A stretch of DNA of 39,000 bases from a virus. The translations under genes and the position numbers were made by a program. Positions 14,316 through 38,880 of the stretch are shown piece after piece; positions within the stretch are counted from its first letter, which is position 1; the number at the start of each line of letters is the position of its first letter. The stretch is taken from IMG/VR virus record IMGVR_UViG_3300032313_001324, positions 1 through 39,000 of that record, one strand, 5' to 3'. Below the pieces are notes generated by a model. That model made no database searches. It was given only the letters and a program-made list of their open reading frames with translations, and was not told where the DNA came from.

Positions 14316-15124
14316 AAATAAAAGTAGCTCATTTTGATGCTAAAGTTTTTGAAAATAAACTTCAACATTTATCCCATTTAGATTTTTCATTATTTATTGA
14401 TACTCCTCCTCAATCACAAGAGGATTTATCCTCTATCAATATAATTTCATTCCAGGAACCAAATGAATATTTTGGTTTACATGATTGGGCTATTCAAAAT
14501 AAAGAATTATTCGATATTATTTTAACACAAAGTGATAAAGTACTAAATAATTGTGATAACGCTTTTTATCAACCTTTTGGACATACTTGGTTAAAATCAG
14601 ACCAATATGAAAAAGAACATAATAAGGAATTTAAGTTAGCTCATTTACAAGGTAAATTACTTAAAACATATGGTCATTCTTTAAGACATGAAGTAACAAC
14701 CAGACAAAATGAATTTAGTATTCCTACTAAATTTTATGAAACGTATGGAGATAGAAATAATATTGAGGATGCTCGTTTAGGTAAAGAATTTATTTTTGGG
14801 GATTCACAATTTGGAGTAGTAATTGAAAATACATCTCATAGGGGATATTTTACCGAAAAAATATTAGACTGTTTTTTATTAAAGACTATTCCCATTTATT
14901 GGGGTTGTTCGAATATAGGTGATTATTTTGATATAGACGGTATTATACCGTTTAATAACGTAGATGACTTAATTTATATGTCAAACAATTTAAATGAGGA
15001 CTACTACTCTTCAAGAAAAGAAATTATTAATAAAAATTGGAAATTGGCTTTAGAGTACGTAAATTACGAGCAAAATATAGTTAACACAATTACAAACATT
15101 TTTAAACACAACAACTTAATATGA
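14312..15124 (+). CDS. GT10-like (fucosyltransferase family) glycosyltransferase
   Basis: A 270-residue protein whose C-terminal half carries the GT10 donor-binding signature: FGVVIENTSHRGYFTEKILD followed by LLKTIPIYWGC. The N-terminal half is divergent, as usual for acceptor domains. GT10 members are alpha-1,3-fucosyltransferases and relatives that take GDP-linked 6-deoxy sugars. That would suit a cassette making unusual deoxy sugars next door. The donor here is an inference. Confidence 0.75.
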   Translation: MKIKVAHFDAKVFENKLQHLSHLDFSLFIDTPPQSQEDLSSINIISFQEPNEYFGLHDWAIQNKELFDIILTQSDKVLNNCDNAFYQPFGHTWLKSDQYEKEHNKEFKLAHLQGKLLKTYGHSLRHEVTTRQNEFSIPTKFYETYGDRNNIEDARLGKEFIFGDSQFGVVIENTSHRGYFTEKILDCFLLKTIPIYWGCSNIGDYFDIDGIIPFNNVDDLIYMSNNLNEDYYSSRKEIINKNWKLALEYVNYEQNIVNTITNIFKHNNLI

Positions 15125-16263
15125 AAAAAATATGGTACGCTCCTTATAAGTTTGAATCTTATGGGGAAGAAGAAATTAAAGCCGTAGAAGAAGCTCTACG
15201 TTCTGGATGGTTAGGTGGACAGGGCCCTAAATCAGTGGAATTTGAAGAAAAAATTGCTAAACGTTTTGGTAAAAAATATGGTATATTTGTTAATTCAGGC
15301 TCATCAGCCTGTTTATTAGCTATTGCTGCTTTAAATTTACCTAAAGGATGTAGAATTATTACTCCTGCTTGTACTTTTTCTACCACATTGGCTCCAATTT
15401 TACAACTTGGTTACAAACCAGTATTTGTAGATGTAGGATTAGATGATTATGTAGCCGTTATTGACCAAATATTAGATGCTATTACCCCTGATGTAAAAGC
15501 AATTATGTTACCTAACTTAATTGGTAATAAACCTGATTGGAAACGTTTACGTCAAGAAATTAAATTATTAGGTAGAACAGACATTATTTTGATTGAAGAT
15601 TCAGCTGATACAATTACTGAAACCCCTGAATCAGATGTTGCTACAACTAGTTTTTATGCCTCACACGTAATTACAGCAGGTGGTGTTGGTGGTATGGTAA
15701 TGTTTAATAATAAAAAACACGTTACATTAGCATTACAATACAGAGACTGGGGTCGTCTGGGGGATGATTCGGAAATTATGGATGATCGTTTTAATCACAT
15801 AGTAGACGGTATTCCTTATGATCATAAATTCCTATACTCAGTATTAGGTTATCATATGAAAGCTTGTGAAATGAATGCTGCTTTTGGATTGGTTCAATTA
15901 CATCGCTTTGAAAAATTCTCACAAATTAGACGAGAAAATATTGAACGTTATCTTGAAAATCTTAAAGGTGTAGGTGATTTAATTCTACCCGATGATTCAA
16001 TTCAACCTAATTGGTTAGCAATTCCTTTACAAACAGAAAAACGTTTTGAATTACTTAACTTCTTAGAAGATAATAATATTCAAACTAGAGTAACATTTGC
16101 TGGTAATGTAACTCGTCATCCTGCTTATAGAGAATTTCTACAGGACTTTAAAAACGCTGATACTATTATGAAAAATGGTTTCTTGTTGGGTGCACATCAT
16201 GGAATGACAGTTGATGATGTAGATTACGTTTGTGATAAAATTAAAGAATTTTTTAATAAATAA
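15121..16263 (+). CDS. DegT/DnrJ-family sugar 3-dehydratase-like enzyme, His at the PLP-lysine site
   Basis: A 380-residue fold-type I PLP enzyme. Family marks include SGWLGGQGPKSVEFEE, NSGSSACLLA and LIEDSAD with D160. At the position of the Schiff-base lysine the motif SFYASHVITAG carries His182. This substitution marks the PMP-dependent 3-dehydratases (RfbH/E1 and ColD) that remove the C3 hydroxyl of 4-keto-6-deoxy sugars instead of transaminating. YRDWGR and YDHKFLYSVLGYHMK also look like the RfbH group. The cysteines that bind the iron-sulphur cluster in RfbH/E1, normally just after DWGR, are absent, so it may act like ColD or differently. It is adjacent to the aldolase and ThDP enzyme genes below. 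Confidence 0.8.
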   Translation: MKKIWYAPYKFESYGEEEIKAVEEALRSGWLGGQGPKSVEFEEKIAKRFGKKYGIFVNSGSSACLLAIAALNLPKGCRIITPACTFSTTLAPILQLGYKPVFVDVGLDDYVAVIDQILDAITPDVKAIMLPNLIGNKPDWKRLRQEIKLLGRTDIILIEDSADTITETPESDVATTSFYASHVITAGGVGGMVMFNNKKHVTLALQYRDWGRLGDDSEIMDDRFNHIVDGIPYDHKFLYSVLGYHMKACEMNAAFGLVQLHRFEKFSQIRRENIERYLENLKGVGDLILPDDSIQPNWLAIPLQTEKRFELLNFLEDNNIQTRVTFAGNVTRHPAYREFLQDFKNADTIMKNGFLLGAHHGMTVDDVDYVCDKIKEFFNK

Positions 16264-16266
16264 AAT

Positions 16267-17064
16267 ATGAACAAAAGAGAATTTAAATGTTCCTCAGTTA
16301 TAACAGATATGGTTGAGAACCATGGTCTAATTGGTATTAAGACTAGTTTTGAGGATGAAGGAGCTACTTTTAATGAAGTTCTTAGATTAAAAGAAATATG
16401 TAATCAAGCTAAAACTAAATTAACCCTAAAAATAGGAGGCCCAGAAGCATCAAGAGATATCCAGGATTCTTCTATAATTGGGGTAAAAGGATTAGTAGCA
16501 CCTATGGTTGAATCAGGGTTTGGATTAAGTAAATTTATTGGATCCGTTAATTCTAATTTAACTAAAGATGTTATTAACTCTTTAGAATTAATTGTTAATA
16601 TTGAAACTATTCAGGCTTATAAAAATATTGATGAAATTTTAAATGTTAAAGAAAGCAAAGAATTATATGCTATTACTGTAGGTAGGGTTGATTTTGTTTC
16701 ATCTATGGGAAAAGATAGATCATTTGTAAATTCTCCTGAGATGTTAAAAATGACTAAAGATATCTTTACTAAAGCTAAAAATATTGGTTTAACAGTTAAT
16801 TTAGGGGGAGCAATAACAACGGATTCATATGATTTTTTAAATGAGTTATATAAGGAAGGTCTTTTAGATAAATTTGAAACTAGATATGCTATTTATGATC
16901 CTTCTAAAGCATTAAAAAATTTAGGTAAAGCTTTAGCTAAAGGACAGTTATTTGAGTATGAGTGGTTAATGAATAAAAGAGAATCATATCAAAAACAATC
17001 AGATAAAGAAATTAAACGCATTCAAATGATTCAAGATCGAATAAATCAATCAACCAATATTTAA
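16267..17064 (+). CDS. HpcH/HpaI aldolase/citrate lyase-like protein
   Basis: 265 residues, TIM-barrel type. Motifs include FEDEGATFNEVLRLKEI, LKIGGPEA, GLVAPMVESGFGL (metal-site Glu), IVNIETIQAY, ITVGRVDFVSSMG and LGGAITTDSYDFL. These correspond to the HpcH/HpaI and citryl-CoA-lyase-like superfamily, which cleaves or forms C-C bonds with pyruvate or acyl-CoA enolates. The C-terminal 35 residues are Lys/Gln-rich and helical. Here it sits between the dehydratase-like and ThDP-enzyme genes. It could extend a sugar with a two- or three-carbon unit or provide the pyruvate-derived unit; this is a hypothesis. Confidence 0.7.
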   Translation: MNKREFKCSSVITDMVENHGLIGIKTSFEDEGATFNEVLRLKEICNQAKTKLTLKIGGPEASRDIQDSSIIGVKGLVAPMVESGFGLSKFIGSVNSNLTKDVINSLELIVNIETIQAYKNIDEILNVKESKELYAITVGRVDFVSSMGKDRSFVNSPEMLKMTKDIFTKAKNIGLTVNLGGAITTDSYDFLNELYKEGLLDKFETRYAIYDPSKALKNLGKALAKGQLFEYEWLMNKRESYQKQSDKEIKRIQMIQDRINQSTNI

Positions 17065-17065
17065 A

Positions 17066-17461
17066 ATGGAATATAAAGAATTGGTTTTAAAAGATGAATC
17101 AAATACTATAGCTATCGATTTTGATGGTGTTATTCATAGTTTTGAATTAGGTTATCATGATGGAACTATATATGGTACACCATTACCCGGTTCTATAGAC
17201 AGTATAAAACGTTTATATAAAAAATTCAAATTAGTTATATATACTGCTAAAGCTAAATCCGATAGACCATTAATTAATGGAAAAACAGGAATAGAATTAG
17301 TTTGGGAATGGCTAGGAAAATACAATATTGATTCGTATATTTCTGAAGTAACAGCAGAAAAACCTAGAGCAATTTGTTATATTGATGATAAAGCCATTAG
17401 GTTTGTTAACTGGGATCAAACATTAAATGAATTATTAGATTTTACCGATGAAAGTTTCTGA
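17066..17461 (+). CDS. HAD-superfamily phosphatase-like protein
   Basis: A 131-residue compact HAD fold. Motif I is IAIDFDGVIH with both aspartates. Motif II is VIYTAKA (Thr), and Lys plus acidic motif III/IV are in EKPRAICYIDDKAI. Such small HADs remove phosphate from sugars or nucleotides. It overlaps the next gene by 14 bases and follows the aldolase gene by one base, so it belongs to the cassette. The substrate is not known. Confidence 0.8.
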   Translation: MEYKELVLKDESNTIAIDFDGVIHSFELGYHDGTIYGTPLPGSIDSIKRLYKKFKLVIYTAKAKSDRPLINGKTGIELVWEWLGKYNIDSYISEVTAEKPRAICYIDDKAIRFVNWDQTLNELLDFTDESF

Positions 17462-19181
17462 TTTAGTTATAAAATTTTTAGAAGATAAAAACGTATCTCA
17501 TGTTTTTACAGTATCCGGAGGCGGTTCTATGCATTTGGTCGATTCATTAGGTAAAGCTGAAAAACTAAAATATGTTTGTGTTCATCATGAACAAGTAGCT
17601 GCTATGGCTGTAGAGGGTTTTTATAGATTAAAAGAAGAGGTTAGTGCAGCTATTGTAACAACAGGGCCTGGAGGTACTAATACATTAACTGGTGTATTAG
17701 GATGTTGGTTAGATAGTATACCCTCAATTTTTATCTCAGGCCAAGTAAATTTATCCCAAACTTCAAAAGATACAGGTTGTAGACAAATAGGTGATCAAGA
17801 ATTTGATATTGTGTCTACAGTAAAAAGTATGACTAAATATGCTGTAATGATTAAAAATAAAAATGATATTTTATATGAATTAGAAAAAGCATATGAATTA
17901 GCTACTACCGGAAGACCTGGACCAGTTTGGATAGATATTCCTTTAGATATTCAAGGGGAAAATGTTGAATTAGAATTATTGAAAAAACATTGGTCTTTTA
18001 ATGAAAAATTATCTCCTACTAAAAAAGAACTTAATAAATTCTATGAATTATTAAATTTATCTAAAAAACCTTTATTTGTTGTTGGAAATGGTATTCGTTT
18101 ATCTAAAAGTTATGAATTATTTAATAACTTACTTAAACAATCAAATATTCCCGCATTAACAGGAGTACATTCTGGAGTAGATTGTATTGATAATACTTAT
18201 GAATATTACGCTGGAAGAATTGGGGTTTTAGGTCAAATTACTTCAAATACTATAGTTCAAGAAGCAGATCTATTAATTATATTAGGTAGTAGACTTAATA
18301 TAAAAACAACTGGATATAACATCCCAGGATTTGCTCCAAATGCTAAAAAAATATTTGTTGATATTGATATCAATGAAATAGACAAGCATAAATTTAAAAT
18401 AGATTTAGGTATAGTTTCTGATTTGAATGAATTTTTAAAAAATTTACAAATAGAAAACCTAAATATTAATGAATGGCGAAATTTTGTTAAACAAGAAAGA
18501 ACTAAACAGGTTTATTTTTATCCTAAACATAAGAATATGGAAAAATACGCTAGTGCTTATTATTTTTCTCATAAATTAAATCAATATACCGGTAATAAAC
18601 CCATTATTACTAGTGATGGTTCTGCCCACGTAGTAATATTACAAACATTTACCTTAAAAAAAGACCAACGTTTATTTACAAATGTAGGTTGTGCTAGTAT
18701 GGGATATGGTTTACCCGCAGCTATTGGGGCGGCTTTTTCTAATAATAAAGAAGATGTAATTTGTATTGAAGGAGATGGTAGTTTACAAATGAATATTCAA
18801 GAATTACAAACTTTATTTCATTATAATCTACCTGTTAAATTGTTTGTTATTAATAATGATGGTTATTTATCTATTAAAATTACTCAAGAAAACTTTTTTA
18901 ACGGTAGAGAAGTAGCTTCTGGAAAAAATAGTGGAATTAGTTTCCCTAATTTAGAAAAATTATGTACAGCTTATGGTTTACCGTATGTTAGTATAACTCA
19001 TAATGATCAAATGGATGAAAAAATCCAACAAACACTTAACACTTCTGGCCCTATTGTATGTGAATTGTTTACATATCCTTATGAAAAACATGAACCAAAA
19101 GTAGTTCATAAAGGAATGGATGCTAATGGAAAAATTATTCCTGGACAATTAACTGATATGTTTATATCTGAAGAATTTTAA
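17448..19181 (+). CDS. ThDP-dependent enzyme, acetolactate-synthase-like
   Basis: 577 residues with the three-domain pyruvate-oxidase/acetolactate-synthase architecture. The N-terminal domain has HHEQVAAMAVEGF, where E48 is the cofactor-activating glutamate, and TTGPGGTNTLTGV. A middle Rossmann domain follows. The C-terminal ThDP motif begins at IEGDGSLQMN (GDG at 442-444) and ends in the NND loop. Such enzymes condense pyruvate-derived acetyl units with ketones or aldehydes. In bacterial polysaccharide loci a homologue, YerE, adds a two-carbon branch to a 4-keto-3,6-dideoxy sugar. The adjacent 3-dehydratase-like gene makes this the best guess. It is too divergent to assign as a classical branched-chain amino acid enzyme. 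Confidence 0.85.
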   Translation: MKVSDLVIKFLEDKNVSHVFTVSGGGSMHLVDSLGKAEKLKYVCVHHEQVAAMAVEGFYRLKEEVSAAIVTTGPGGTNTLTGVLGCWLDSIPSIFISGQVNLSQTSKDTGCRQIGDQEFDIVSTVKSMTKYAVMIKNKNDILYELEKAYELATTGRPGPVWIDIPLDIQGENVELELLKKHWSFNEKLSPTKKELNKFYELLNLSKKPLFVVGNGIRLSKSYELFNNLLKQSNIPALTGVHSGVDCIDNTYEYYAGRIGVLGQITSNTIVQEADLLIILGSRLNIKTTGYNIPGFAPNAKKIFVDIDINEIDKHKFKIDLGIVSDLNEFLKNLQIENLNINEWRNFVKQERTKQVYFYPKHKNMEKYASAYYFSHKLNQYTGNKPIITSDGSAHVVILQTFTLKKDQRLFTNVGCASMGYGLPAAIGAAFSNNKEDVICIEGDGSLQMNIQELQTLFHYNLPVKLFVINNDGYLSIKITQENFFNGREVASGKNSGISFPNLEKLCTAYGLPYVSITHNDQMDEKIQQTLNTSGPIVCELFTYPYEKHEPKVVHKGMDANGKIIPGQLTDMFISEEF

Positions 19182-19190
19182 TAAAAAAAT

Positions 19191-19952
19191 ATGATACTAT
19201 ATAAAAAGCAAACTAATTTAAATTCATTTTTTCAAAAATCAACCCCCACATTATCAGACTTAGCTAATAAATTTGAAACTGATAAAGGTACAGAAAACTC
19301 TTTAAATTTATCCTGGGGGAAGGATTATCCTCATCATTCATGTATGCATTACACAAAAACGTATGAAAAATATATGGAAATAAAAAGAAATGATGAAATT
19401 TCTATGTTAGAAATAGGTGTGTGTGATAAAAGATTTCCTTATGCTTCGATTAAAATGTGGATGAGTTATTTTAAAAATATTGATTTATATGCTGTTGATA
19501 ATTTTTGGGGACACACAGTTGAAGATAAATTAACAGATATAAAGGACATTAATAATAATGGAGTAAATTTTATCTATGCTGATCAAGGTAGTTTTAATGA
19601 TTGGGATGAAATTAATCATTGCTATCCAAATAAATTTGATTTTATTGTTGAAGATGGAAGTCATTGGCCTAATCATATGATGATTAGTTTATGGAAATCT
19701 ATTAATATAATTAAAAAAGATGGTTATTTTTTTATGGAAGATATACAAAATCCATTAAAGTCTAGAGGTTGGTTTAAATATGATAATTCTTTACTAGCTC
19801 AAGAACTATTAGAAACTTTAGCTACAAATAAATTAGAGTCTAGTTTTTTAAATACTCAACAAAATCAAGACATACAAAATAATTATGATTTAGTTGAATT
19901 AGTATTAGACCCTAATAAAGTTAATTATTTAGCAGTGTTTAAAAAGAAATGA
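19191..19952 (+). CDS. class I SAM methyltransferase (TylF/macrocin O-methyltransferase-like)
   Basis: 253 residues. DLANKFETDKGTEN, EISMLEIGVCD and IKMWMSYFKNIDLYAVD match the SAM-binding part of the O-methyltransferase group that includes TylF-type and macrocin methyltransferases. DFIVEDGSHWPNHM is the acidic metal/substrate motif. A sugar hydroxyl is the likely target in this cluster. Its 3' end overlaps the epimerase gene (ATGA). Confidence 0.78.
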   Translation: MILYKKQTNLNSFFQKSTPTLSDLANKFETDKGTENSLNLSWGKDYPHHSCMHYTKTYEKYMEIKRNDEISMLEIGVCDKRFPYASIKMWMSYFKNIDLYAVDNFWGHTVEDKLTDIKDINNNGVNFIYADQGSFNDWDEINHCYPNKFDFIVEDGSHWPNHMMISLWKSINIIKKDGYFFMEDIQNPLKSRGWFKYDNSLLAQELLETLATNKLESSFLNTQQNQDIQNNYDLVELVLDPNKVNYLAVFKKK

Positions 19953-20719
19953 AAATTTTAATAACTGGGGCTAATGGTTATATAGGTAAAACTTTATATA
20001 ACTCTTTAAATACAAAGTACGATGTAATACCTTTGTCTAGAAAAGAATTAGACGTAACCAATTTAAAACAAGTTAAAGATTATTTAAAACATAAATATTT
20101 TGATGTTGTTATACATTGTGCTGTTGAAGGCGGTCTTAGATTAGAACCAGAACATTCTTATATCCTGGATAGTAATTTGAAAATGTATTATAATTTATTG
20201 GAATGTAAAGATCATTTTAATAAATTTTTCTATTTTGGCTCTGGGGCTGAAGAGCAGGATACATTTTATGGGTTAAGTAAAAAAGTACTAAACCAATCTA
20301 TCCAGGATAAAGATAATTTTCATAACGTAAGAATATTTGCTGTATTTGATGAAAACGAATTAGAATCTAAATTTGTTAAAACAAACATTTATAATTATAT
20401 TACCCGAAAAGATGTACAAATATTTCAAAATAAATACATGGATTTTTTCTATATGGATGATTTAATTACACTAATGAATTATTGTATTACAACTAATAAT
20501 TTGCCAAAAGAAATAAATTGTAGTTATAATTATTCTCCTACGTTATATGATGTTGCTCAAATTATTAACAATTTAAGTGATTATAAAGTAAATATTAATA
20601 TAGAAGAATGGGGTATGGCTCCAATATTTAATGGTAGTTTTACTGATTTAGGATTAACTTATATTGGATTAGAACAAGGTATAAAGAATGTTTATAATAA
20701 ATTAAAATATGAATATTAA
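19949..20719 (+). CDS. NAD-dependent epimerase/reductase (extended SDR)
   Basis: 256 residues. GANGYIGKT (residues 7-15) is the Rossmann GxxGxxG motif of extended short-chain dehydrogenases, and FYGLSKK provides the catalytic YxxxK pair. The serine upstream of it in FFYFGSGAEE fits the active-site Ser. It would epimerise or reduce a nucleotide-keto sugar. In the yersiniose and colitose pathways a reductase of this class completes the sugar. It is shorter than dTDP-glucose dehydratases. Confidence 0.8.
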   Translation: MKILITGANGYIGKTLYNSLNTKYDVIPLSRKELDVTNLKQVKDYLKHKYFDVVIHCAVEGGLRLEPEHSYILDSNLKMYYNLLECKDHFNKFFYFGSGAEEQDTFYGLSKKVLNQSIQDKDNFHNVRIFAVFDENELESKFVKTNIYNYITRKDVQIFQNKYMDFFYMDDLITLMNYCITTNNLPKEINCSYNYSPTLYDVAQIINNLSDYKVNINIEEWGMAPIFNGSFTDLGLTYIGLEQGIKNVYNKLKYEY

Positions 20720-21632
20720 AATATTAATCCATGTAATGCCATGGGATATCGATTATGCCTTATTAATGTTTACTCAATTAAAAAAATCCAAATATTATCT
20801 TCCAAAAGATGTTAATATTATTTTAGATATTGAATTAAATTTAACAAGTTATTTATACAATTGGGAAGAAAGTAAATTATCTAAAGATTATTTTATTGAT
20901 AAGTTTAATACTTTACTTTTATTACTAGGTGACTATAAAGTAAATACTTTTATATATGAGGGAAATGAATTATATGGCCATTTTGACCACCAGAAAAAAT
21001 TTATATCACCCGACACTGATTACTATATGGGTATATGCCCTGATATTTATTTTAGTGAATATGCCTTAACATATTTAATAGAATCAGCAAAACAAATAAC
21101 TAATAAATATTTTGTTATTACTCCTCAAGTACATAAGGTAGGTGATGATGATTGGGATAGAATTGTAGATCCAAAATATTTAGATGTTCCTTATTCGGAT
21201 TATTTAAAAGTAGATATCTTTGATATAAGATATAATAATAAAATAGATAATCAAGAAAGATATTTAGAACCATTACATAAAAGTAAATTCGCTGGTTGGT
21301 TTGATTTATATAGTAAATCTTTTTATGAAGAATTATGTCCTGTTCAAAAAGAATGGAATGGATATGGCCCTTGGGATTATTACTCTATGGTAATAACTGA
21401 TTATTGTAAATCTAAAGGAGTAGATGTTCAACAATATGTTTTAAGAGGAGAAACAATATGGATGTACCCATCAGGACCATTATTGGAAAATGGGGCTAAT
21501 GGTTTTACTCAGTATTACAGAGATAGATTAAAAACAAACATTGTACCTAATCAAAGAGAAGAATTTGAATCTAAGATTGAAGAATATGTTAATAAAACCC
21601 TTATAGACCTAAAAAATAAAAATATCATTTAA
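20709..21632 (+). CDS. probable GT-A-fold glycosyltransferase, 307 aa
   Basis: The start overlaps the epimerase gene by 11 bases. Landmarks are SPDTDYYMGICPDIYFSEYAL, with a DxD-like acidic element, and FAGWFDLYSKSFYEEL. WNGYGPWDYYSMV and YVLRGETIWMYPSGPL suggest an acceptor/donor-site region shared with phage and bacterial GT2-type enzymes. I recognise a glycosyltransferase style rather than a named family; it could also be a sugar-binding or other transferase. It lies in a run of transferase genes, and its stop overlaps the next ATG by one base. Confidence 0.55.
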   Translation: MNIKILIHVMPWDIDYALLMFTQLKKSKYYLPKDVNIILDIELNLTSYLYNWEESKLSKDYFIDKFNTLLLLLGDYKVNTFIYEGNELYGHFDHQKKFISPDTDYYMGICPDIYFSEYALTYLIESAKQITNKYFVITPQVHKVGDDDWDRIVDPKYLDVPYSDYLKVDIFDIRYNNKIDNQERYLEPLHKSKFAGWFDLYSKSFYEELCPVQKEWNGYGPWDYYSMVITDYCKSKGVDVQQYVLRGETIWMYPSGPLLENGANGFTQYYRDRLKTNIVPNQREEFESKIEEYVNKTLIDLKNKNII

Positions 21633-23050
21633 TGAAAAAAGAATTAGTTATAGCAGCCTACGATAGAGATTATAGTTGGATTAATAATCTTAATGAGGAT
21701 GTTCTAGTTACAGTATATAGAAAAGGTGATAATCCTTTACTTAAAGATGAAATATTGATTAATCCAAATGTTGGAAGAGATGTTCATACTTTTTTTTATC
21801 ATTTGTATAATAAATACGAAACACTATCTGATGTTACTTTTTTTAGCCAAGATTATCCTTTTGATCATGTACACAATTATGTTGATATTATAAATGGGGA
21901 TAAAACCCTATGGAATCAACAAGCAAGACAAAATATAGATGGATGTTGGTTTTTTTCACACTATGATTTTGTATTATGTAACAAAACAGGAGCCCCTCAC
22001 CATCCTGGGGTAGGATTAGATATACTTGATTTAGAAAAATTATGGAATGACATATTTCAAATTCCTTGTCCCTCAAATATCGTATTCCCATCAGCCGGTC
22101 ATTTTGCTATTTCGAAAGAACATGCCCATATTTTTCCAAAAGAATTTTATAAAAAAATAGTAGATATACTTGAAACCCAACCTAATTCCCCATGGGAACT
22201 TGAACGTTTAGAACCTTATATTTTTTTTAACCCATCAACATTAAAATCTTTTCCTAAAAAGAATGCTATAGTTATACCAGCTTATAATAATTTACAAACA
22301 CATGAACAATATAAAAAGTGTATTTCAACATGGGAATTTTATTGTAAAAAACATAATATAGATTTTCATATAATAGAAGGAGAAAAATATTATACAGATT
22401 TTCCTGACTATGCTGCTATGTGTTATGATAGATGGATAGACATCAATTTTCTTATTTCAGAATATGATAGAATAACCTTTGTCGATGCTGATACTTTTAT
22501 AAGATGGGATTCACCTGATATGAATAAGATTTTTGAAGAAAATAACCTAGATATAGTAGTTGTTCCTGACCAAGGTGGACCTCAAACCGCACAATACCAT
22601 ATTAATCAATGGTTAGGTTTTAAACCTAATGTTTTTTCTTTTATAAAGAATTATTTTAATGCTGGGTTTGTTTCTATGAAAACACACCACTTCCATAAAC
22701 TTCAAGAACAAATAGTTTTATATAAAGATTATTATTATACTCATAAAGATATTGAAGGTCATGTAAAAGGTATTGGTAAAAAAGGAGGAGTAAGGATTGA
22801 TGCTATGGATCAAACAGCGGTTAATATAATTTTACAAGAATTATTTCCATATAACATTACATTCATTCAAAAAGATTTTAATTGTCAAGTACCCTATCTG
22901 TTTAATGGAGATGAAGATTTTAGAAATAATTACTCTAGCTTTAAATGGTTAAATGAGGGTTATATATTCCACCTAGGATCTAGTACATTAGCGTATATGA
23001 ATCTAGTAAATGAGTTTTGGTCGTACTTTAACGAAAATTATAATTATTAA
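21632..23050 (+). CDS. DUF3431-glycosyltransferase fusion protein
   Basis: 472 residues, two parts. The first about 110 residues match the DUF3431 style: VIAAYDRDYSWINNL, the invariant NVGRDVHTFFYHLYN and VTFFSQDYPFDH. The second part (from about residue 210) is a GT8/GT-A-like glycosyltransferase. It has KNAIVIPAYNN, DRITFVDADTFIRWD (DxD), MDQTAVNIIL and a closing IFHLGSST. DUF3431 often accompanies glycan genes and is likely sugar-active. Joining it to a GT in one phage protein is unusual. The protein follows the 20709 gene with a one-base overlap. Confidence 0.7.
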   Translation: MKKELVIAAYDRDYSWINNLNEDVLVTVYRKGDNPLLKDEILINPNVGRDVHTFFYHLYNKYETLSDVTFFSQDYPFDHVHNYVDIINGDKTLWNQQARQNIDGCWFFSHYDFVLCNKTGAPHHPGVGLDILDLEKLWNDIFQIPCPSNIVFPSAGHFAISKEHAHIFPKEFYKKIVDILETQPNSPWELERLEPYIFFNPSTLKSFPKKNAIVIPAYNNLQTHEQYKKCISTWEFYCKKHNIDFHIIEGEKYYTDFPDYAAMCYDRWIDINFLISEYDRITFVDADTFIRWDSPDMNKIFEENNLDIVVVPDQGGPQTAQYHINQWLGFKPNVFSFIKNYFNAGFVSMKTHHFHKLQEQIVLYKDYYYTHKDIEGHVKGIGKKGGVRIDAMDQTAVNIILQELFPYNITFIQKDFNCQVPYLFNGDEDFRNNYSSFKWLNEGYIFHLGSSTLAYMNLVNEFWSYFNENYNY

Positions 23051-23061
23051 ATATAATAAAC

Positions 23062-23631
23062 ATGGCACATAAAGAACAAATAGATTATGTAAATAGGGTT
23101 AAAGATAAATTCCCTACATTTTTTCAAAAACAAAAAGTTTTGGGAATTGGAACATTTAATGTCTGTGGGACAGAGGATCAATTTTTTAATGATTGTAATT
23201 ACCAAGGGTTAGACCTAGGACCTGGCCCCGGAGTAGATATTGTTTGCCCTGCTCAGGATTACGATGCTCCTGATAACTCATACGATGTTATTATTTCATG
23301 TGAATGTTTTGAGCATAACCCCTTTTATAAGGAAACTATCCAAAATGCTTATAGAATACTTAAACCTGGGGGGATGTTTTTATTCACTTGTGCTACCATA
23401 GGAAGACCTATCCATGGTACCGCTTCTTTAGAGGAAGAAAGCAAGAAAAAGTTTCCAAAATGGAAAACAATGCCTAATGTTGTAAAAGAAAACTGGGATA
23501 ATGATTATTATAAGAATTTAACCGAAGAAGATATTAGAGAATGTATAGATATAGATAATTCATTTAGTGAGTATGAATTTGAAGTAGAAACTAATCACTG
23601 TGACCTTTTTTTTCATGGTTTTAAGAAATGA
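23062..23631 (+). CDS. SAM-dependent methyltransferase (Methyltransf_11-like)
   Basis: 189 residues. The SAM pocket is in QKVLGIGTFNVCGT and LDLGPGPGVDIVC, then SYDVIISCECFEHNP and YRILKPGGMFLFTCAT. It lacks a target-recognition domain for DNA, so a sugar or lipid-linked precursor is the likely substrate. It overlaps the next glycosyltransferase by four bases. Confidence 0.85.
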   Translation: MAHKEQIDYVNRVKDKFPTFFQKQKVLGIGTFNVCGTEDQFFNDCNYQGLDLGPGPGVDIVCPAQDYDAPDNSYDVIISCECFEHNPFYKETIQNAYRILKPGGMFLFTCATIGRPIHGTASLEEESKKKFPKWKTMPNVVKENWDNDYYKNLTEEDIRECIDIDNSFSEYEFEVETNHCDLFFHGFKK

Positions 23632-24539
23632 TATCTTTAATAATTCCTGCTACTAGTGGTAATAAAAAATACACAGATAATATTTTAAAAAATATTAATG
23701 AAATTTATCCTAATGTTGAAGTTATTATTGAAGTAAATGATCATTTATCTTTAGCGGATAATTATAATAATGCGGTATCTAAGGCTAGTGGAGATAAAAT
23801 AATTTTATTACATAATGATATGATTATTAAACCCGGTTTCATTGAAACAATGAATAAACATATCACCAAAGGCAGAATAACCACATACACAAGAATAGAA
23901 CCACCAATATACCCCGATATATACCCAGGTAAAGAGCTATTAGATTGCGGACGAGACTTAGAAACATTTGATAAAAATAAATTTTTAGACTTTAATGTAG
24001 ATGAAAGTTTAAGTGATGGTGGATCACAATTATTTTTTGGATGTATGAAAGAAGATTATATTGGATTAGATAATAAAACTTTTTGTCCACCACAAATGTG
24101 GTGTTCTGATGATGATCTTCATTTAAGATATAAATTGGCAGGATTTGAACATAAAGTGAGTTCTGCTCATGTTTATCACTTTGTAAGTAAAACTTCTCGA
24201 GTTGGAAATTATCAAGAAATTGAACAACAATCTAATATAAATTTTATTAAAAAATGGGGGTTTAGAAATTCCATCTATAATGTAGTTTATAATAAAAAAT
24301 GTATTATAAATAATAGTAATGATGGATTAAATGAATCTATAAATTGGTGGTTTAATGGAGGAGAAGATATTATTGTTGAAATTGACGGTAATACTTTTAC
24401 TCAACAAGATTATACCTATATCCAGCAGCTTAATGATATAATAAAAGAAAACAATGATATAGGTACTTTTGAGTTGGGGAATATTAAAGTAACAGTAAAT
24501 AAATTAGATGAACAACAACATAAATATATCAAATTATGA
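23628..24539 (+). CDS. glycosyltransferase, GT2-like
   Basis: 303 residues. The N-terminus ISLIIPATSGNKKYTDNIL and the LLHNDMIIKPGF region (with an Asn-Asp-Met in place of the usual DxD) fit family 2. SDDDLHLRYKLAGFEHKV is the conserved acidic acceptor-side motif. The last 60 residues are polar and Gln/Asn-rich. It is the last recognisable enzyme of the island. Confidence 0.78.
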   Translation: MISLIIPATSGNKKYTDNILKNINEIYPNVEVIIEVNDHLSLADNYNNAVSKASGDKIILLHNDMIIKPGFIETMNKHITKGRITTYTRIEPPIYPDIYPGKELLDCGRDLETFDKNKFLDFNVDESLSDGGSQLFFGCMKEDYIGLDNKTFCPPQMWCSDDDLHLRYKLAGFEHKVSSAHVYHFVSKTSRVGNYQEIEQQSNINFIKKWGFRNSIYNVVYNKKCIINNSNDGLNESINWWFNGGEDIIVEIDGNTFTQQDYTYIQQLNDIIKENNDIGTFELGNIKVTVNKLDEQQHKYIKL

Positions 24540-25132: not shown

Positions 25133-25366
25133 ATGAAATGTATCAAATGTAGAGAAATAATCCCTGAGGGGAGGTTAAAAGCAATACCAGAAACAAAAAC
25201 ATGCACCAGCTGTTCAGGTGCTAGAATGAAAGGTGTTGTAACATTAATGAAAGGTGAAGGAGATCATACTTGGATAGAAACTATTCATTTGGATGCTGAT
25301 GACTATGATCGTTACTTAGCACAAGAAAAAAAACAAAACCCACCACCCCAAGAGGAGGAACAATAA
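25133..25366 (+). CDS. DksA/TraR-type zinc finger protein, 77 aa
   Basis: CIKCREIIPEGRLKAIPETK followed by CTSCSGARM matches the C4 zinc finger of the DksA/TraR family (CxxC, RLxAxP, CxxC). DksA-like proteins bind in the RNA polymerase secondary channel and modulate transcription, but this copy lacks the long coiled coil. Here it is probably a reduced version or a zinc finger of related fold. The C-terminal tail is Gln/Pro/Glu-rich. The start follows a TATATTTA box by five bases, so it could be leaderless. Confidence 0.72.
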   Translation: MKCIKCREIIPEGRLKAIPETKTCTSCSGARMKGVVTLMKGEGDHTWIETIHLDADDYDRYLAQEKKQNPPPQEEEQ

Positions 25367-26011
25367 ATGCCTTCCCCCAAACCTTTTACAAAAGAACAGG
25401 TCCTTAGTGCAATGGACAAAACAAAGTCCGTAAGAGGAGCTGCTCGTTACTTAAACTGTTCATATCAACATCTTAAAAAGTGGATGAAACTTTATAAAGA
25501 TGAGGCCACAGGTAAAACACTATTTGAATCACATAAAAATCCATCAGGTAAAGGTATTCCTAAATTTTTAAGTCATGCCCCTTTTGGTAGAAAAGAACCA
25601 GCTATTCTAGACATTATGAATGGTGTTATTGATCCTTCCAATTTTAGTCCTCAAAAAATTAAATATAGAATGATTGAGGGAGGTTATTTAAAAGAGGAAT
25701 GCTATAAATGTGGTTTTCATGAGCGTAGAGTATTAGATTATAAAATACCATTACTAATGCATTTTAAAAATGGTAATAAGATGAATTATACCTTTGAAAA
25801 TGTTGAAATGCTATGTTATAATTGTTATTATATTTCTGTGGGTGACTTATATACAGGTAAACAAATTGAGGGAATTGAGGACCATAAACCAATATATAAT
25901 GCTCAAGTAGATTGGGAGGTTGATAGTTATACTTTAGAACGTTTTAAAGAATTAGGATTATATGATCCAAAACCTTTAGAGGATGGAAGCGAATTTATAA
26001 GTCGACTTTAA
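25367..26011 (+). CDS. HTH plus HNH-like zinc domain protein
   Basis: 214 residues. An N-terminal helix-turn-helix style region (SVRGAARYLNCSYQHLKKWM) is followed by a linker. A zinc domain similar to HNH endonucleases is CYKCGFHERRVLDYKIP, then LMHFKNGNKMNYTFENVEML and CYNCYY. The final His of an HNH motif is Tyr here (NCYY where NCH is typical), so catalytic activity is doubtful. A DNA-binding protein is likely. The start follows the zinc-finger gene directly (stop TAA, then ATG), so the two may be a regulatory pair. Confidence 0.68.
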   Translation: MPSPKPFTKEQVLSAMDKTKSVRGAARYLNCSYQHLKKWMKLYKDEATGKTLFESHKNPSGKGIPKFLSHAPFGRKEPAILDIMNGVIDPSNFSPQKIKYRMIEGGYLKEECYKCGFHERRVLDYKIPLLMHFKNGNKMNYTFENVEMLCYNCYYISVGDLYTGKQIEGIEDHKPIYNAQVDWEVDSYTLERFKELGLYDPKPLEDGSEFISRL

Positions 26012-32174: not shown

Positions 32175-32528
32175 ATGAATTTTATACACAATTTAAGCCA
32201 AACAGAATACCTTCAGTTCAAAACCCAAAAGGGATATTTTGAATTATACTCAGGATATGAGGCGGGAGGCCAGCCACAAAAATTAGCGGACCATAGGGGT
32301 GGCAAATGGGTATTTGAGGATTTTAACCAACGGACACTATTTTTTACTTTATTTAATTTGTACCGAAATGAATTCTTTAAGGCATTCAAATCGTATCAAC
32401 GTTCTTTAAGAGAGAAACCATCCTTGTATGAATTCTCGTGTGTTAGAAGAAAATTCTCAATAAGAGTAACTAAATTGAAGAGGGGTTGGTCAAATTGGTT
32501 TTACAACGCTTTTTATCCTATGAAATGA
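32175..32528 (+). CDS. hypothetical protein, 117 aa
   Basis: The sequence is aromatic and basic in the second half (FFTLFNLYRNEFFKAFKSYQ, CVRRKFSIRVTKLKRGW). It may be membrane-associated but has no clear transmembrane helix. The overlap with the next gene is four bases (ATGA). From here codons become richer in G/T than in the upstream genes, suggesting a different origin. No family is recognised. Confidence 0.62.
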   Translation: MNFIHNLSQTEYLQFKTQKGYFELYSGYEAGGQPQKLADHRGGKWVFEDFNQRTLFFTLFNLYRNEFFKAFKSYQRSLREKPSLYEFSCVRRKFSIRVTKLKRGWSNWFYNAFYPMK

Positions 32529-33204: not shown

Positions 33205-33561
33205 ATGAAACGGTTATTATTAATAGTGCTAATGTCAGTGGGAGTATTGACAGCACAAACAAAATGTGATTTTTCGGAGGTAACATTTGAGAAATACAGT
33301 CAACGAGGAAATGAAATGTATTTCCGAACTAACCTAGATGAGGATGTATGTCTTTATTTCTACTTTACCGCTTATGATTATCAATTAAAACGAGTTGATA
33401 TATTACAAGCTTTTGGTAGTACAACTAAAGCTTTATTTAAAGCTAAAGGTAAATACCAAATGCGATTAAATGTAGTTAATGAATGTGGAAACTGTGATAC
33501 TATACTTACCATTGATATTAAACGTAATAATATTTATACCAATACAATATTTAAGTTATAA
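33205..33561 (+). CDS. secreted protein, 118 aa
   Basis: A signal peptide, MKRLLLIVLMSVGVLTAQ, is followed by a mature part that is Cys-containing (KCDFS, DVCLYF, CGNCDT). It looks like a small Ig/PKD-type beta domain of the kind found in flavobacterial secreted proteins. Export to the periplasm or surface is inferred from the signal. It sits just before the giant secreted protein and may be its partner. Confidence 0.7.
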   Translation: MKRLLLIVLMSVGVLTAQTKCDFSEVTFEKYSQRGNEMYFRTNLDEDVCLYFYFTAYDYQLKRVDILQAFGSTTKALFKAKGKYQMRLNVVNECGNCDTILTIDIKRNNIYTNTIFKL

Positions 33562-33567
33562 AAGAAT

Positions 33568-36500
33568 ATGAGAAAATTATTAAGTATACTATTATTTTTG
33601 TTTAGTTTTTTAGCAGTTAAGGGTACCCATATGATGGGTGCAGACATGAGTTATCAGTGTTTGGGTAACGGAAAGTATAAAATAATTGCCAAAGTTTATC
33701 GAGACTGCCGAGGGGTTGCTTTATCACCTGTTAGTTTTGGTGCGTTTGCAGGAACAAATGGTAGTAATCAGTGTGGAAGTATCACATTAACTGGGTTGAC
33801 AAGGACGGGAATTAGAGATGTTACAACCAGATGCTCGTCATCTTCAAATCCATGCAACCCCAGTAATGTGGGATTTACGGGTAAAGGTGTAGAGGAACAC
33901 ACATTTGAAGCAACTATTGATTTTACAACTTCACCCTTAAATCAGTTTGTCGGTAAAGCTGCTTGTTGTGAAATTACCTTTTATACGGGTCAGTGTTGTA
34001 GGAATGGTGGAATTACAACAGGTGCTGCTAATCAAGACTTTTACACTACCTGTATGATTAATATTTGTAATATCAACAAAACAGATAATAAGTGTAACAG
34101 TTCACCACAACTCTCCAACGAGCCTGTGGGTTTTTTGTGTTGTAACACCCCTTGGTATTACAATAACGGAGCGGTAGATACGGTCGACTTTGATTCTATT
34201 TCATATAAATTGGTTAAAGGTCTTAGTGGTTTACCTACAACTGCGACCAATTATTCTTCACCATTTACGGAGAGATATTTTATGACGCCGTTTTGTATTC
34301 CCCCCAGCGCTACTAACATTAAGTGTACACCTAATGTAAATGTTAATCCACCACGGGGTATATATTTTGATGAAGGTAATGGAGATATTATTACAACACC
34401 TACCAAATGCGACGAGGTTCCAATTTTAGTTATTGAACAGACGGAATATCGAAAAGATACCACAGGTAAATGGTTGGTGATCGGTCGAACCCGAAGGGAC
34501 ATGCAGATGTGGGTTATTGATGAGTGTGGATTTAATAAGCCTCCTATTATCAAAGGTCCTTTTGTTTGGAATTTATGTGAAGGAGAAAAAATTTGTAAGA
34601 AGATAAAAATTGAGGATGAGACCTTTACACCGAACCAAACGGTTCCTGATACCGTTTTAGCGACTTGGAATGGTGGTATACCTGGAGCTACGTTTGAAGT
34701 GGTAGATCCAACCAAGCGTGAAAAAGAATACGAGTTTTGCTGGGAAACAAAGGTTGGCGACGCCTCTGATGTATCGTATACGTTTACCGTGAGAGCGACT
34801 GACCAACACTGTACACCTCCGATGATTTCAATTCGTTCATTTAAAGTTAAGGTAAACCCTAAAGCCGAAGCCGAAAGAAAATATGATACTTTAAAATGTG
34901 GTCGTTTTGCATTTACCAGTGTAACACCTGGTGGATTTAAAGGAACACCATCACATCAATGGAGTGTTAGAGATAGTTCAGGTAGTAAAGAATTAAAATT
35001 CAGTGGTAGAAAAAGTGATACAATGAACTATTACTACGGTGGTAAATATATTGTTGTCCACACGATTAATAACTCTTTCAACTGTCCAACCATTTATAGA
35101 GATACGGTAGACCTTCCTCAACCTCCTAAAGTTATATTAGCAGACCTTGATAGTTTTGCATGTTTTGGTTCAACATTTAAATTATCACCTAAAATAATTG
35201 CAGGTAAAACCCCATTCAGCTATCGCTGGAACACCGGAGATACAACATCATCTAAAGAAATTAAAAATTTTAGACGGGACACTACACTAATCCTTCGAGT
35301 AAAAGATGGGGATGGGTGTTTATTTAGTGATACAGTATTTACACCTGTTAAACCACTACCTGTCGTAAATCTTGGACCTAATAAGATCATCTGTACTTAT
35401 GATAATATCATGTTTGATGCTCAACATTCTGATACTATGTTTTATCTATGGAGTACAGGTGATACAACACGTAGTATTGTTACTAACTTTAAAGGTAATT
35501 ATTCTGTGATTGTTACGGATACAATTTACTCATGTGAGGGATATGATACTGTATTTTTAACCGTAAATGACACTATAAAGTCGATTGCAGGTATTAATCA
35601 GAGAGTTTGTGACAGAGATATCTTTAAAATTAAAGCATCTCATACCCCATCTAATTTAACCGCACAATACCAATGGATTGGAACTGGTGGATTATCTCAA
35701 TATGATATTAAAGCAAATATTAAAAATTCACCATATCAATATATTCTTAGAACCACAATAAATCAAAATGGAATTAGTTGTTTTGATTTTGACACCACAA
35801 ACATTAGTATAAAACCGTTACCAAATCTTTCTTGGAAAAAATTAGACCCCGAATGTTATGATTATGGTAATATTTGGTTACAAGATTTCTTTAATAAACC
35901 ACATACATTAGGAACTTGGGATATTTGGAGTGGAACTCTGAAAGATAAAAAACCTCCTGTATATGGTAATACACCTGATAATGGAAGATTCTATTTTAAT
36001 ATGTCAGATATTGATAATAATAAAATTCAAGGAGGTAATAATCTTTCTGTTAAAATATATGGTAGATTTAACGACACTAATGGATGTCACAATATTGATT
36101 CTACTATTCAGGTTATTAATGGAACACCACTTATTAAGTTATTTACAAAACAATTCTGTCAAGATTTTGGTGAAATAGATTTATTTAAACAGATTGTTGA
36201 CATACCAAGAAGTAAATCAGGTAACACTTTAAAATGGAATGTTTTAAATTACCCTGGTAGTGTTAACAAGGATATGTTACTGGTAAACAAAAACCCATTT
36301 GGAGTTGGAGATTGGTGGTTTAAGTTTGGTGGACCGACTGAAGATTATTATATGGGTAATTACCAATTCCAACTTTGTGTTGAAAATGTAATAAGCGGTT
36401 GTTTTGATTGTGATACCACTAATATCGAAATTATATCGGAACCCGATGTTAGAATTGAAACCATTCCTAACCTTTGTATTAACTCAGGTGAGTTATTAAA

Positions 36501-38106
36501 CTTATATGATTATATTAAAGTTAATGAATTACCCGCAACAGGTGGTGAGATTAAAATTACGGCTTTTAATGGAAATATTAATGATAATAGAACAAAAATA
36601 ACTATTGATAATGGGAAATTTAACCCATCAATTGGAGCAGGAATATATGATTTAGAATATTCAACATCACAAATGGGATGTGAAAAAATTACTAAGTTTA
36701 TGGTGTTTGTTAATGACACACCTGATTTACAGATTTTAGGTGTGAGGGGGTTTTGTTCCACATATTCTTGGCCTTTTGATTTGAAAGGTATACAAACTTT
36801 CACCAGTAAAGGTGTGACAAACATTCTTTATCCTGAAGGTCAATTTTTCACCCCAAACATAGATGTGAATAACAAATATATTGGCGGTAATTACACAAGA
36901 ATGTTAATTGGTGAAAATCAATTTGGGTGTAAAGACACCGAGTGGGCACAAATAATAATAACGGTACAACCTGAGATTAAAATTGTTCCCCCGTTTGTCA
37001 GTTGTAGTAAAGACACTTGGACATTTAAATATGACACAGCAAATATTAATCCCAATGCACTTTATAAAATTAGAGCGGTGATTAACACATATATGTATGA
37101 TACGCTGACACCTCCTAGTGGCAAAGTAATTGGAAGTCTTAGGGGTTTTGGTAAAAAACAATACATACCAAGTGATGAAGATACCGCTCGAGGTTATTTC
37201 ACAGTTCGTTTTAAATCATGGGGTTCATTCCCATGTGCAGATATTAGAGATAGTGTTAAAATTTTAATTACACCCTATCCTGAACCTGATTTTATTACTG
37301 AAAATGGATGTCAACCACACACCCAAGCTTTTATACCAATAGAAAAACGTGGAATTCAAAACATAGAATACTCTTGGTCAATCAACGATACTCTCTCAAT
37401 AGAAAATATTCCGGGTGGGTCAAAAACATCAGGAACATTCAACAATGAAGGATTTTACAGAACAACACTATCAGCAGTTAATAGGACATTCTTTCCTGAC
37501 AAAATATGTGCGACATCAATAACCAAAACATTTGAAGTTTATCCAAATCCTGTCTCAAATTTTATTACTGACCCAACATTTAAAACAACAGTTGCCTTAC
37601 CAAGATTTAAAACAACGAATAAATCAACAGTGTCACAAAAATATTTTACAAATACAATGACCTATGATTGGTATTGGGGTAAAGAAACTGAAATAGGTAA
37701 AGACTCCTCAACGAATCCTTTAATTATTTTTGGTAAAGACACAGGAACCTATTGGATTAATTTGTTTACAAAAACAGATAAGGGGTGTGTTGATTCAACA
37801 TCAAGATTAGTATATGTAGGTCCTGATATGATAGTATTCATACCTGACGTGTTCACACCAAATACGGAAGGACCAAATACTAATAATACTTTCCAACCAT
37901 CACTTATAAATGAAAAATATTTTAACATGATGATTTATAACCGTTGGGGAGAAAAGTTATATGAGACATCAAATATCCATAAAGGATGGGATGGAACTTA
38001 TTTAGGAAGCCCGGCTCAACAAGGTGTGTATATATATAAAATCATGGTTATATCTATGGAAGATAAAATTTATACATACGACGGAACTGTTACATTATTA
38101 AGATAA
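33568..38106 (+). CDS. giant secreted adhesin-like protein with type IX secretion (gliding-motility) C-terminal domain
   Basis: 1512 residues. Residues 1-19 are a signal peptide (MRKLLSILLFLFSFLAV). Then comes THMMGADMSYQCLGNGKYK followed by VYRDCRG, a start seen in secreted Bacteroidota proteins. The middle is a chain of Ig/PKD-like units: for example RWNTGDTTSS near 552 and LWSTGDTTRS near 628 are two related turns. The last about 90 residues (VFIPDVFTPNTEGP, YNRWGEKLYETS, GVYIYKIMV and VTLLR) are the gliding-motility-associated C-terminal domain that directs proteins through the type IX system to the surface. A phage-encoded copy is notable. It may exclude superinfecting phages, alter adhesion, or be a virion protein borrowed from a host; none is shown. 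Confidence 0.85.
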   Translation: MRKLLSILLFLFSFLAVKGTHMMGADMSYQCLGNGKYKIIAKVYRDCRGVALSPVSFGAFAGTNGSNQCGSITLTGLTRTGIRDVTTRCSSSSNPCNPSNVGFTGKGVEEHTFEATIDFTTSPLNQFVGKAACCEITFYTGQCCRNGGITTGAANQDFYTTCMINICNINKTDNKCNSSPQLSNEPVGFLCCNTPWYYNNGAVDTVDFDSISYKLVKGLSGLPTTATNYSSPFTERYFMTPFCIPPSATNIKCTPNVNVNPPRGIYFDEGNGDIITTPTKCDEVPILVIEQTEYRKDTTGKWLVIGRTRRDMQMWVIDECGFNKPPIIKGPFVWNLCEGEKICKKIKIEDETFTPNQTVPDTVLATWNGGIPGATFEVVDPTKREKEYEFCWETKVGDASDVSYTFTVRATDQHCTPPMISIRSFKVKVNPKAEAERKYDTLKCGRFAFTSVTPGGFKGTPSHQWSVRDSSGSKELKFSGRKSDTMNYYYGGKYIVVHTINNSFNCPTIYRDTVDLPQPPKVILADLDSFACFGSTFKLSPKIIAGKTPFSYRWNTGDTTSSKEIKNFRRDTTLILRVKDGDGCLFSDTVFTPVKPLPVVNLGPNKIICTYDNIMFDAQHSDTMFYLWSTGDTTRSIVTNFKGNYSVIVTDTIYSCEGYDTVFLTVNDTIKSIAGINQRVCDRDIFKIKASHTPSNLTAQYQWIGTGGLSQYDIKANIKNSPYQYILRTTINQNGISCFDFDTTNISIKPLPNLSWKKLDPECYDYGNIWLQDFFNKPHTLGTWDIWSGTLKDKKPPVYGNTPDNGRFYFNMSDIDNNKIQGGNNLSVKIYGRFNDTNGCHNIDSTIQVINGTPLIKLFTKQFCQDFGEIDLFKQIVDIPRSKSGNTLKWNVLNYPGSVNKDMLLVNKNPFGVGDWWFKFGGPTEDYYMGNYQFQLCVENVISGCFDCDTTNIEIISEPDVRIETIPNLCINSGELLNLYDYIKVNELPATGGEIKITAFNGNINDNRTKITIDNGKFNPSIGAGIYDLEYSTSQMGCEKITKFMVFVNDTPDLQILGVRGFCSTYSWPFDLKGIQTFTSKGVTNILYPEGQFFTPNIDVNNKYIGGNYTRMLIGENQFGCKDTEWAQIIITVQPEIKIVPPFVSCSKDTWTFKYDTANINPNALYKIRAVINTYMYDTLTPPSGKVIGSLRGFGKKQYIPSDEDTARGYFTVRFKSWGSFPCADIRDSVKILITPYPEPDFITENGCQPHTQAFIPIEKRGIQNIEYSWSINDTLSIENIPGGSKTSGTFNNEGFYRTTLSAVNRTFFPDKICATSITKTFEVYPNPVSNFITDPTFKTTVALPRFKTTNKSTVSQKYFTNTMTYDWYWGKETEIGKDSSTNPLIIFGKDTGTYWINLFTKTDKGCVDSTSRLVYVGPDMIVFIPDVFTPNTEGPNTNNTFQPSLINEKYFNMMIYNRWGEKLYETSNIHKGWDGTYLGSPAQQGVYIYKIMVISMEDKIYTYDGTVTLLR

Positions 38107-38249
38107 AAATCATCGTTAATAACGCGGAACTCCGAATCATCGGGTACTATGACATGATGGGCAAGCAAGTTGATTATATGCGCTATAATGAGGTATATAT
38201 CGTGCTATACAGCAATGGTCAGCGCAGAAAAGTAATGAAACATGAGTAA
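38107..38249 (+). other. open stretch resembling a type-A sorting domain fragment (no start codon)
   Basis: Frame 3 is open over this region without a conventional start until ATG 38154. It reads KIIVNNAELRIIGYYDMMGK and then NEVYIVLYSNGQRRKVMKHE. That is the layout of a type IX secretion type-A C-terminal signal (YDMMGKxV ... YIVxYxxGxxRK). It begins right after the stop of the giant protein and is offset by one frame (-1), so it may be an alternative tail or a remnant. By eye it is richer in G and C (aacgcggaactccgaatcatc) than its neighbours. Its stop overlaps the start of the next gene. Confidence 0.5.
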
Positions 38250-38475
38250 ACCACTTTTTATAATTAGAATACCGGCCTCTGCCCCAACAGATAATCTAGC
38301 AGAGCAAATGGATATGATATCAAGAAGGTTGCATGAAGATTATTATGTAATTCCTATTAGAGATAGTAGTGTTGAGCAATTAGAATTTGAATGTTATAAT
38401 GCCGAAAATGCAACAAGCATAGATATCGAGGAAATTAAACAAATGGTTTTAAAACAATTTAACAATGAGCAATAG
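38242..38475 (+). CDS. hypothetical protein, 77 aa
   Basis: The product MSKPLFIIRIPASAPTDNLA has a beta strand followed by a helix (EQMDMISRRLHEDY), then VIPIRDSS and an acidic helix. This ferredoxin-like pattern appears in many small phage proteins with the start 'KPLFIIRxP', but no function is known. The start overlaps the sorting-domain-like fragment. Confidence 0.68.
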   Translation: MSKPLFIIRIPASAPTDNLAEQMDMISRRLHEDYYVIPIRDSSVEQLEFECYNAENATSIDIEEIKQMVLKQFNNEQ

Positions 38476-38523: not shown

Positions 38524-38880
38524 ATGGAAATCAAAGGTATTACATATAAAGAAGTTGAAAAAACATTTAGCCAATTAAAACCGGATTTACTAGATGAACA
38601 TGCCAAATATTATGGATGCTTTATTAAAGATGAATTAGTGGGTATTGTTTCATATGTTGAACATTCCTCAGTAATATACCTTTGTCATGCTTATGTTAAA
38701 GAGGAATATAGATCTAAAGGCATATACAAACTATTATGGAATTATAGAGATTCTAAAATAAAAGAATTAGATAAAACAGTATATGCTCATTGTAATGTAG
38801 ATAGTTTAAAATATTTTATTAATAATGGGTATGTAATTGAAAAAGCATTATTTAAAGTAACTAAAGAAAACAAATTATGA
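38524..38880 (+). CDS. GNAT-family N-acetyltransferase
   Basis: 118 residues. The GNAT fold is suggested by the strands GCFIKDELVGIVSYVEH and YLCHAYVKEEYRSKGIYKLL, the latter with the R/Q-x-x-G/A-like RSKGIY acyl-CoA loop. HCNVDSLKYFINNGYVIEKA provides the typical NxxSxxFxxxxGF-like segment. It would acetylate an amine substrate that cannot be told. The end overlaps the next gene (ATGA). Confidence 0.78.
   Translation: MEIKGITYKEVEKTFSQLKPDLLDEHAKYYGCFIKDELVGIVSYVEHSSVIYLCHAYVKEEYRSKGIYKLLWNYRDSKIKELDKTVYAHCNVDSLKYFINNGYVIEKALFKVTKENKL

Follow-up and report, generated by a model that had tools for sequence, protein, structure and literature searches.

A giant type B cargo of the type IX secretion system in a freshwater phage contig, with probable ancestry in a Bacteroidota surface protein

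Phage-encoded cargo of the type IX secretion system (T9SS) was reported in 2020 for Cryophage (Bellas et al. 2020, PMC7468147), and T9SS sorting domains near BACON-repeat genes of gut phages were noted in 2019 (PMC6949934). In the literature searched, with subscription journals and preprints outside its coverage, no description was found of phages with a mosaic surface protein that is of type B and host-derived. In this study, we describe the gene at 33568-38106 of a 39,000-base IMG/VR virus record (IMGVR_UViG_3300032313_001324; G000), a metagenomic linear fragment of a freshwater phage that is referred to in its whole length as the window. The gene very probably encodes a phage-borne T9SS type B cargo with host ancestry, and it is, by its sequence, a phage-maintained form of a surface protein encoded on Bacteroidota chromosomes.

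The open frame is intact, starts with ATG and comprises 1512 codons, exactly as an earlier note made from the sequence had claimed. The C-terminal T9SS domain proposed in that note was recovered by the profile check, which assigned it to type B: the extreme C-terminus (residues 1424-1511 of 1512) matched CHU_C (PF13585) with 48.6 bits and TIGR04131 with 40 bits against a cut-off of 35, the cut-offs being the curated ones of Pfam (PF13585 and PKD_4) and NCBIfam (TIGR04131). TIGR04131 had no match in any of 14 control genomes, the Pfam and NCBIfam profiles detected no type A sorting domain (Por_Secre_tail) in the protein, and no PHROG matched it. The repeats claimed in the note were borne out by a PKD_4 match (27.5 bits), while its signal peptide stands on a leader that looks Sec-type by eye.

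Homologues were found in eight Bacteroidota contigs of metagenome-assembled genomes (MAGs), with 40-68% identity in the best segment and several of them full-length; one of the eight MAGs is labelled Sphingomonadales, a label that is probably wrong. The full-length homologues and the phylogeny against bacterial homologues uphold the derivation from a Bacteroidota surface protein. In the donor family (G034), the N-terminal module was present at E <= 1e-60 in 66/70 genomes, with a best copy 88% identical, and SprA (TIGR04189) was found in all six bacterial genomes tested. The CHU_C-class sorting domain gave 28-70 profile matches per bacterial genome. Most of the bacterial homologue contigs share a chromosomal layout, annotated in contig L014 as aminopeptidase P, PCMT and a Mur-ligase-like gene, and these neighbours had no match among the window genes except one weak 33% match involving a small membrane open reading frame (ORF). 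The closest bacterial homologue (L014:8001-12646, of G034) is broken into three frames, through either a MAG sequencing error or decay of the gene.

The protein is a mosaic, with its first ~500 residues of a bacterial lineage and its C-terminal part of a phage lineage. In the identity profile, residues 1-480 were 80-92% identical to L014/G034 and 46-72% to phages, and residues 1121-1360 were 65-68% identical to the L019 phage group and 21-43% to L014; the C-terminal part showed 60% identity to other phage contigs. In the N-terminal tree, the window copy was sister to L014 (support 100/98) and its module, which is homologous, fell within the bacterial clade, a single phage clade being rejected by the approximately unbiased (AU) test (p-AU 3.9e-9). 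In the C-terminal tree (residues 1041-1512), all phage copies formed one clade (100/100) and a clade of the window plus L014 was rejected (p-AU 6.6e-53). With the window set aside, the phage copies may have two separate origins, though the data do not force this (p-AU 0.26). The guanine plus cytosine content at third codon positions (GC3) was 0.28-0.30 before residue 500 and 0.18-0.24 after it, with the same border as that of the mosaic. Among 108 genomes of the order, no bacterial copy exceeded 38% when the C-terminal query was taken in full length. Short segments close to the sorting domain reached higher values, and an unsampled bacterium may have a phage-like C-terminus. Synonymous sites were saturated with respect to L014, the nearest bacterium, which argues that the N-terminal exchange was not very recent.

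An alignment search revealed the full-length protein in seven other viral contigs, whereas a single-protein pattern scan (P0001) of viral contigs gave no match. A terminase was present in 5/7 of these contigs and phage-type RNA ligases lay near the gene in those examined; the DNA polymerase of the window was not found in the seven. A second CHU_C protein occurs also in G004 and G005, and a type A (Por_Secre_tail) protein is encoded by other genes of L022 and L019. Since G004 and G014 share 96/309 ORFs, including a 74% identical terminase, they are members of one broad phage group. The ratio of non-synonymous to synonymous substitutions (dN/dS) was 0.075-0.11 for the copies of the L019 group, and the phage copies are under purifying selection. 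L219 and L022, phages with otherwise different surroundings, share 1.62 kilobases (kb) of the gene at 91.6% nucleotide identity; this shared stretch marks a recent transfer, and the gene moves between phages. In L219, the N-terminal module is reduced to about 60 residues. In addition, a strict sorting-domain motif scan retrieved 58 stretches, viral by IMG/VR label, all with the motif near the end of an open frame, so that T9SS type B cargo seems to recur across viral contigs, some of more than 100 kb. A separate family of ~745-775 amino acids (aa) with a type B C-terminus was also observed in many viral contigs (including L238, L258, L262, L267 and L278, some >100 kb); in its N-terminal part, this family shows no relationship to the window protein.

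The window lines up collinearly with the 80.7-117.7 kb region of G014 (268.7 kb), a terminase-bearing viral contig, and is phage sequence on both sides of the giant gene. This collinearity, the phage genes on both sides of the gene and the lack of any mapping to a bacterial chromosome agree with the phage location previously assumed. A prophage or chromosome end was rejected, as the chromosomal neighbours were missing and phage genes lay on both sides, and the plasmid search returned no more than a single weak match (12%). In G014, the relatives of 32175-32528 and 38242-38475 are only 22 bases apart, and the 5.7 kb separating these genes in the window, giant gene included, are absent. Because the relatives of the flanking genes adjoin in this collinear contig, the giant gene sits in an insertion (Table 1). 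The sequences at 33205-33561 and 38115-38243, the latter starting just past the stop of the giant gene, match the N- and C-terminus of a secreted gene family (R), so that the giant gene lies within R and the middle of R is gone. The R C-terminus is like a short type A sorting tail by eye, yet no Por_Secre_tail match was obtained. A viral scan using the 33205 fragment gave no match, and relatives turned up only in contigs fetched by position.

Table 1. Features of the window at and around the giant gene, in order of position.
Feature	Position	Strand	Evidence
Left-flank conserved phage gene, 117 aa	32175-32528	+	Relatives in G014, G011, G012, G024, G025, L219
Small hydrophobic ORF within the insertion, 89 aa	32525-32794	+	No family match; membrane call by eye
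Small hydrophobic ORF within the insertion, 136 aa	32791-33201	+	47-49% relatives in viral loci L053, L061; membrane call by eye
Split ~290-aa secreted gene of family R, N-terminal fragment of 118 aa	33205-33561	+	Hidden Markov model (HMM) of four intact R proteins, 72 bits, R positions 1-117
Giant T9SS type B cargo gene	33568-38106	+	Open frame; scores of CHU_C and TIGR04131 above cut-off; homologues along the full length in MAGs of Bacteroidota and in seven viral contigs
N-terminal leader, residues 1-19	33568-33624	+	MRKLLSILLFLFSFLAVKG; Sec-type judged by eye
N-terminal module, residues ~20-500, bacterial (G034) lineage	33625-35067	+	88% identity to G034; tree 100/98 with L014; GC3 0.28-0.30
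Remainder, residues ~561-1512	35248-38103	+	Mostly closer to phage copies, residues 881-960 excepted (identity profile; tree of residues 1041-1512, 100/100)
PKD_4 repeat, residues 598-668	35359-35571	+	27.5 bits, cut-off 27
Type B T9SS sorting domain (CHU_C, PF13585), residues 1424-1508	37837-38091	+	48.6 bits, cut-off 27
C-terminal remnant of split gene R, 43 codons	38115-38243	+	50% identity, E 4e-11, R residues 245-288; HMM 51 bits
Right-flank gene, 77 aa	38242-38475	+	41% to G014 117454-117684; adjacent to left-flank relative there
GNAT acetyltransferase of phage	38524-38880	+	PF13673 33.8 bits; 92% identical to L219 8659-9006

The cargo differs or is missing at this slot across the sister phages, being variable between close phage variants. 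L219, whose GNAT gene is 92% identical to that of the window, has a 592-aa CHU_C protein there, G011 has a ~290-aa secreted protein of family R, and G024 and G014 have neither. R is carried further off from the slot in G012 and G022, and L024 has an intact R gene directly upstream of the giant gene. A thymidylate synthase, annotated by sight, adjoins the slot in several sister phages. Close to the slot, a GDSL/SGNH hydrolase whose N-terminus is hydrophobic is encoded in L219 (4484-5161), L229 (15568-16272), L230 (16187-16852) and L231 (18155-18862), called with Pfam for L219 only and by sight for the other three; none is present in the window.

The earlier note had taken the ORF at 33205 for a second secreted protein. 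Its origin in a secreted gene holds, whereas its standing as a separate gene and separate cargo was rejected, since it is the N-terminal part of split gene R. The ORFs at 32525 and 32791, described as membrane proteins, are indeed hydrophobic by eye, the first being best read as the 89-aa frame in Table 1. The multi-gene surface module proposed from these genes did not hold up, as 33205 is a remnant of a split gene and the membrane ORFs are without demonstrated link to the giant protein. Remodelling of the cell surface and the blocking of other phages, also proposed there, are plausible. That reading missed that the protein has host ancestry, that it combines host and phage lineages and that phages pass the gene among themselves.

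The genes of the window include a PolB polymerase, a clamp loader, a GroEL, an exonuclease, an endolysin, HNH nucleases and a large sugar/glycosyltransferase block, all but GroEL and this block being listed as phage genes upstream of the giant gene. The PolB polymerase has 48 related viral loci, and L053 and L061 were retrieved through it; on the right side, sister phage contigs contain relatives of 38242-38475 and of the GNAT gene. GroEL is full-length (5311-6921; PHROG chaperonin, E 9e-155) and 80% identical to the G014 copy. The block at 10507-24539 (~14 kb) encodes glycosyltransferases, an aminotransferase, methyltransferases and a sugar epimerase. Because several of its genes (16267-19181, 21632-23631) are absent from G014, it is a second variable region, which could be surface-related. 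In G014, two Terminase_6N matches (25258-25860 and 228436-229203) are located within open frames 543 and 593 aa long.

Secretion through Sec followed by T9SS is an established pathway. During infection, the protein would be made with its leader and exported by Sec, and its C-terminal domain would be recognised by the SprA-type T9SS of the host, which would place it on the cell surface; the leader, the sorting domain and the presence of SprA in the donor family are the grounds for proposing this route. The displayed phage protein would then replace or cover the host's own homologue and thereby change adsorption at the infected cell's surface. Superinfection exclusion or progeny protection would be the likeliest gain. 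The N-terminal module would be exchanged so as to match the surface of the current host. Phage resistance arises in T9SS/gliding (gld/spr) mutants of Flavobacterium columnare (PMC9233685), and therefore T9SS-exported surface proteins matter for adsorption. For this reason, and given that exclusion has also been proposed for the T9SS cargo of Cryophage (PMC7468147), exclusion is the purpose that we favour. The full sequence of T9SS export to the infected-cell surface, altered adsorption and likely superinfection exclusion is put forward tentatively, with somewhat less than an even chance of being right. It must be noted that several points weigh against it. Gene ancestry is the sole pointer to the host, which would be the T9SS-bearing donor family. 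In close relatives such as G014 and G024, the slot holds no cargo, and therefore the cargo is dispensable. The AlphaFold model of the N-terminal module had a predicted local distance difference test (pLDDT) score of 49 and was not used for a fold search, and the PDB profile search matched the adhesin SraP weakly over 67 residues (E 0.0014), to be taken as a lead only, and gave no match for the C-terminal part.

The phage copy could instead enhance or preserve what the host protein ordinarily does (adhesion, aggregation, gliding or nutrient capture) in a long infection, with no anti-phage role. An N-terminal module very near the host form (88%) and under constraint, together with the weak match to a bacterial adhesin, would suit such an auxiliary function, which we nevertheless consider unlikely, given that the C-terminal part is a divergent phage lineage and that L219 has dispensed with most of the module. 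Competition for the host translocon, lowering the export of other surface proteins including phage receptors, is rather improbable: the sorting domain is of the same class as that of many host proteins (28-70 profile matches per bacterial genome) and some phages have several T9SS cargoes, but a short sorting domain alone would be enough for jamming and the conserved large N-terminal module points to a displayed function. We give little credence to a virion component, built into the particles as an adhesin or receptor-binding part, since the leader (Sec by eye) and the T9SS signal send the protein outward, its absence from close relatives argues against a core structural part and no PHROG matched it, even though it is a large repeat protein of phages with modular exchange like that of tail fibres.

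Equally little can be said for a captured gene without phage function. The insertion destroyed a resident gene and is missing in relatives, as expected of a passing acquisition, but the 1512-codon frame is intact, the phage copies are subject to purifying selection and the C-terminal part is a long-lived phage lineage. Fusion of a bacterial contig to a phage contig during assembly is hardly credible. Although the record comes as a linear piece from a metagenome and the N-terminal module resembles bacterial sequence, phage-type sequence lies immediately upstream and downstream, so that the assembly would have to be wrong at two joins; moreover, the bacterial chromosomal neighbours are absent, synonymous sites are saturated relative to the nearest bacterium and the full gene is found in seven other viral contigs.

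Returning to the exported, surface-displayed cargo that we prefer, the protein is host-derived and T9SS-tagged, and versions of it are both present in related phages and exchanged among them. These features suggest that such phages redecorate infected cells at their surface. The findings indicate that, beyond merely carrying T9SS-tagged genes, large environmental phages keep a host surface protein in a version of their own and recombine it. A bolder proposal, which we regard as doubtful, is that large Bacteroidota phages keep their own lineage of a host surface protein and repeatedly swap its N-terminal module with the chromosomal allele of the current host, so that the infected cell shows a phage-modified 'self' via T9SS. 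If true, this 'self' would be an identity-matched surface disguise or shield deciding which phages or neighbouring cells bind. Phage control of the Bacteroidota surface is directly testable here, since the gene, its secretion route and the host homologue are all defined and the site occurs naturally both with and without the gene.

With respect to known systems, the closest counterparts include the chromosomal THMMGADM surface proteins (G034 family; gliding motility-associated C-terminal domain), with which the window protein shares full-length homology, the layout of leader, module, repeats and CHU_C, and an 88% identical N-terminal module. The bacterial copies occupy a conserved chromosomal locus, whereas the window copy has a separate C-terminal part of phage lineage. 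The huge phages LR756502.1 (642 kb) and LR745206.1 (634 kb), from a set predicted to replicate in Bacteroidetes, also carry CHU_C proteins, several in each (3 and 4 matches over the cut-off, respectively), but only the C-terminal ~290 residues of these resemble the window protein, at 27-28%; among them (L002-L010) are repeat proteins of 1670 and 1205 aa. The T9SS sorting domains of gut phages are likewise carried on phage genes, but they are annotations beside head genes and a host-derived mosaic was not described (PMC6949934). Cryophage is, like the window phage, a Bacteroidetes phage with T9SS-tagged proteins that vary between close variants (PMC7468147). Its genome is 76 kb and its sorting domains are of type A, on an endoglucanase, a glycoside hydrolase and a PA14 protein, whereas the window protein is of type B and is a giant host-derived mosaic borne by large phages of another kind.

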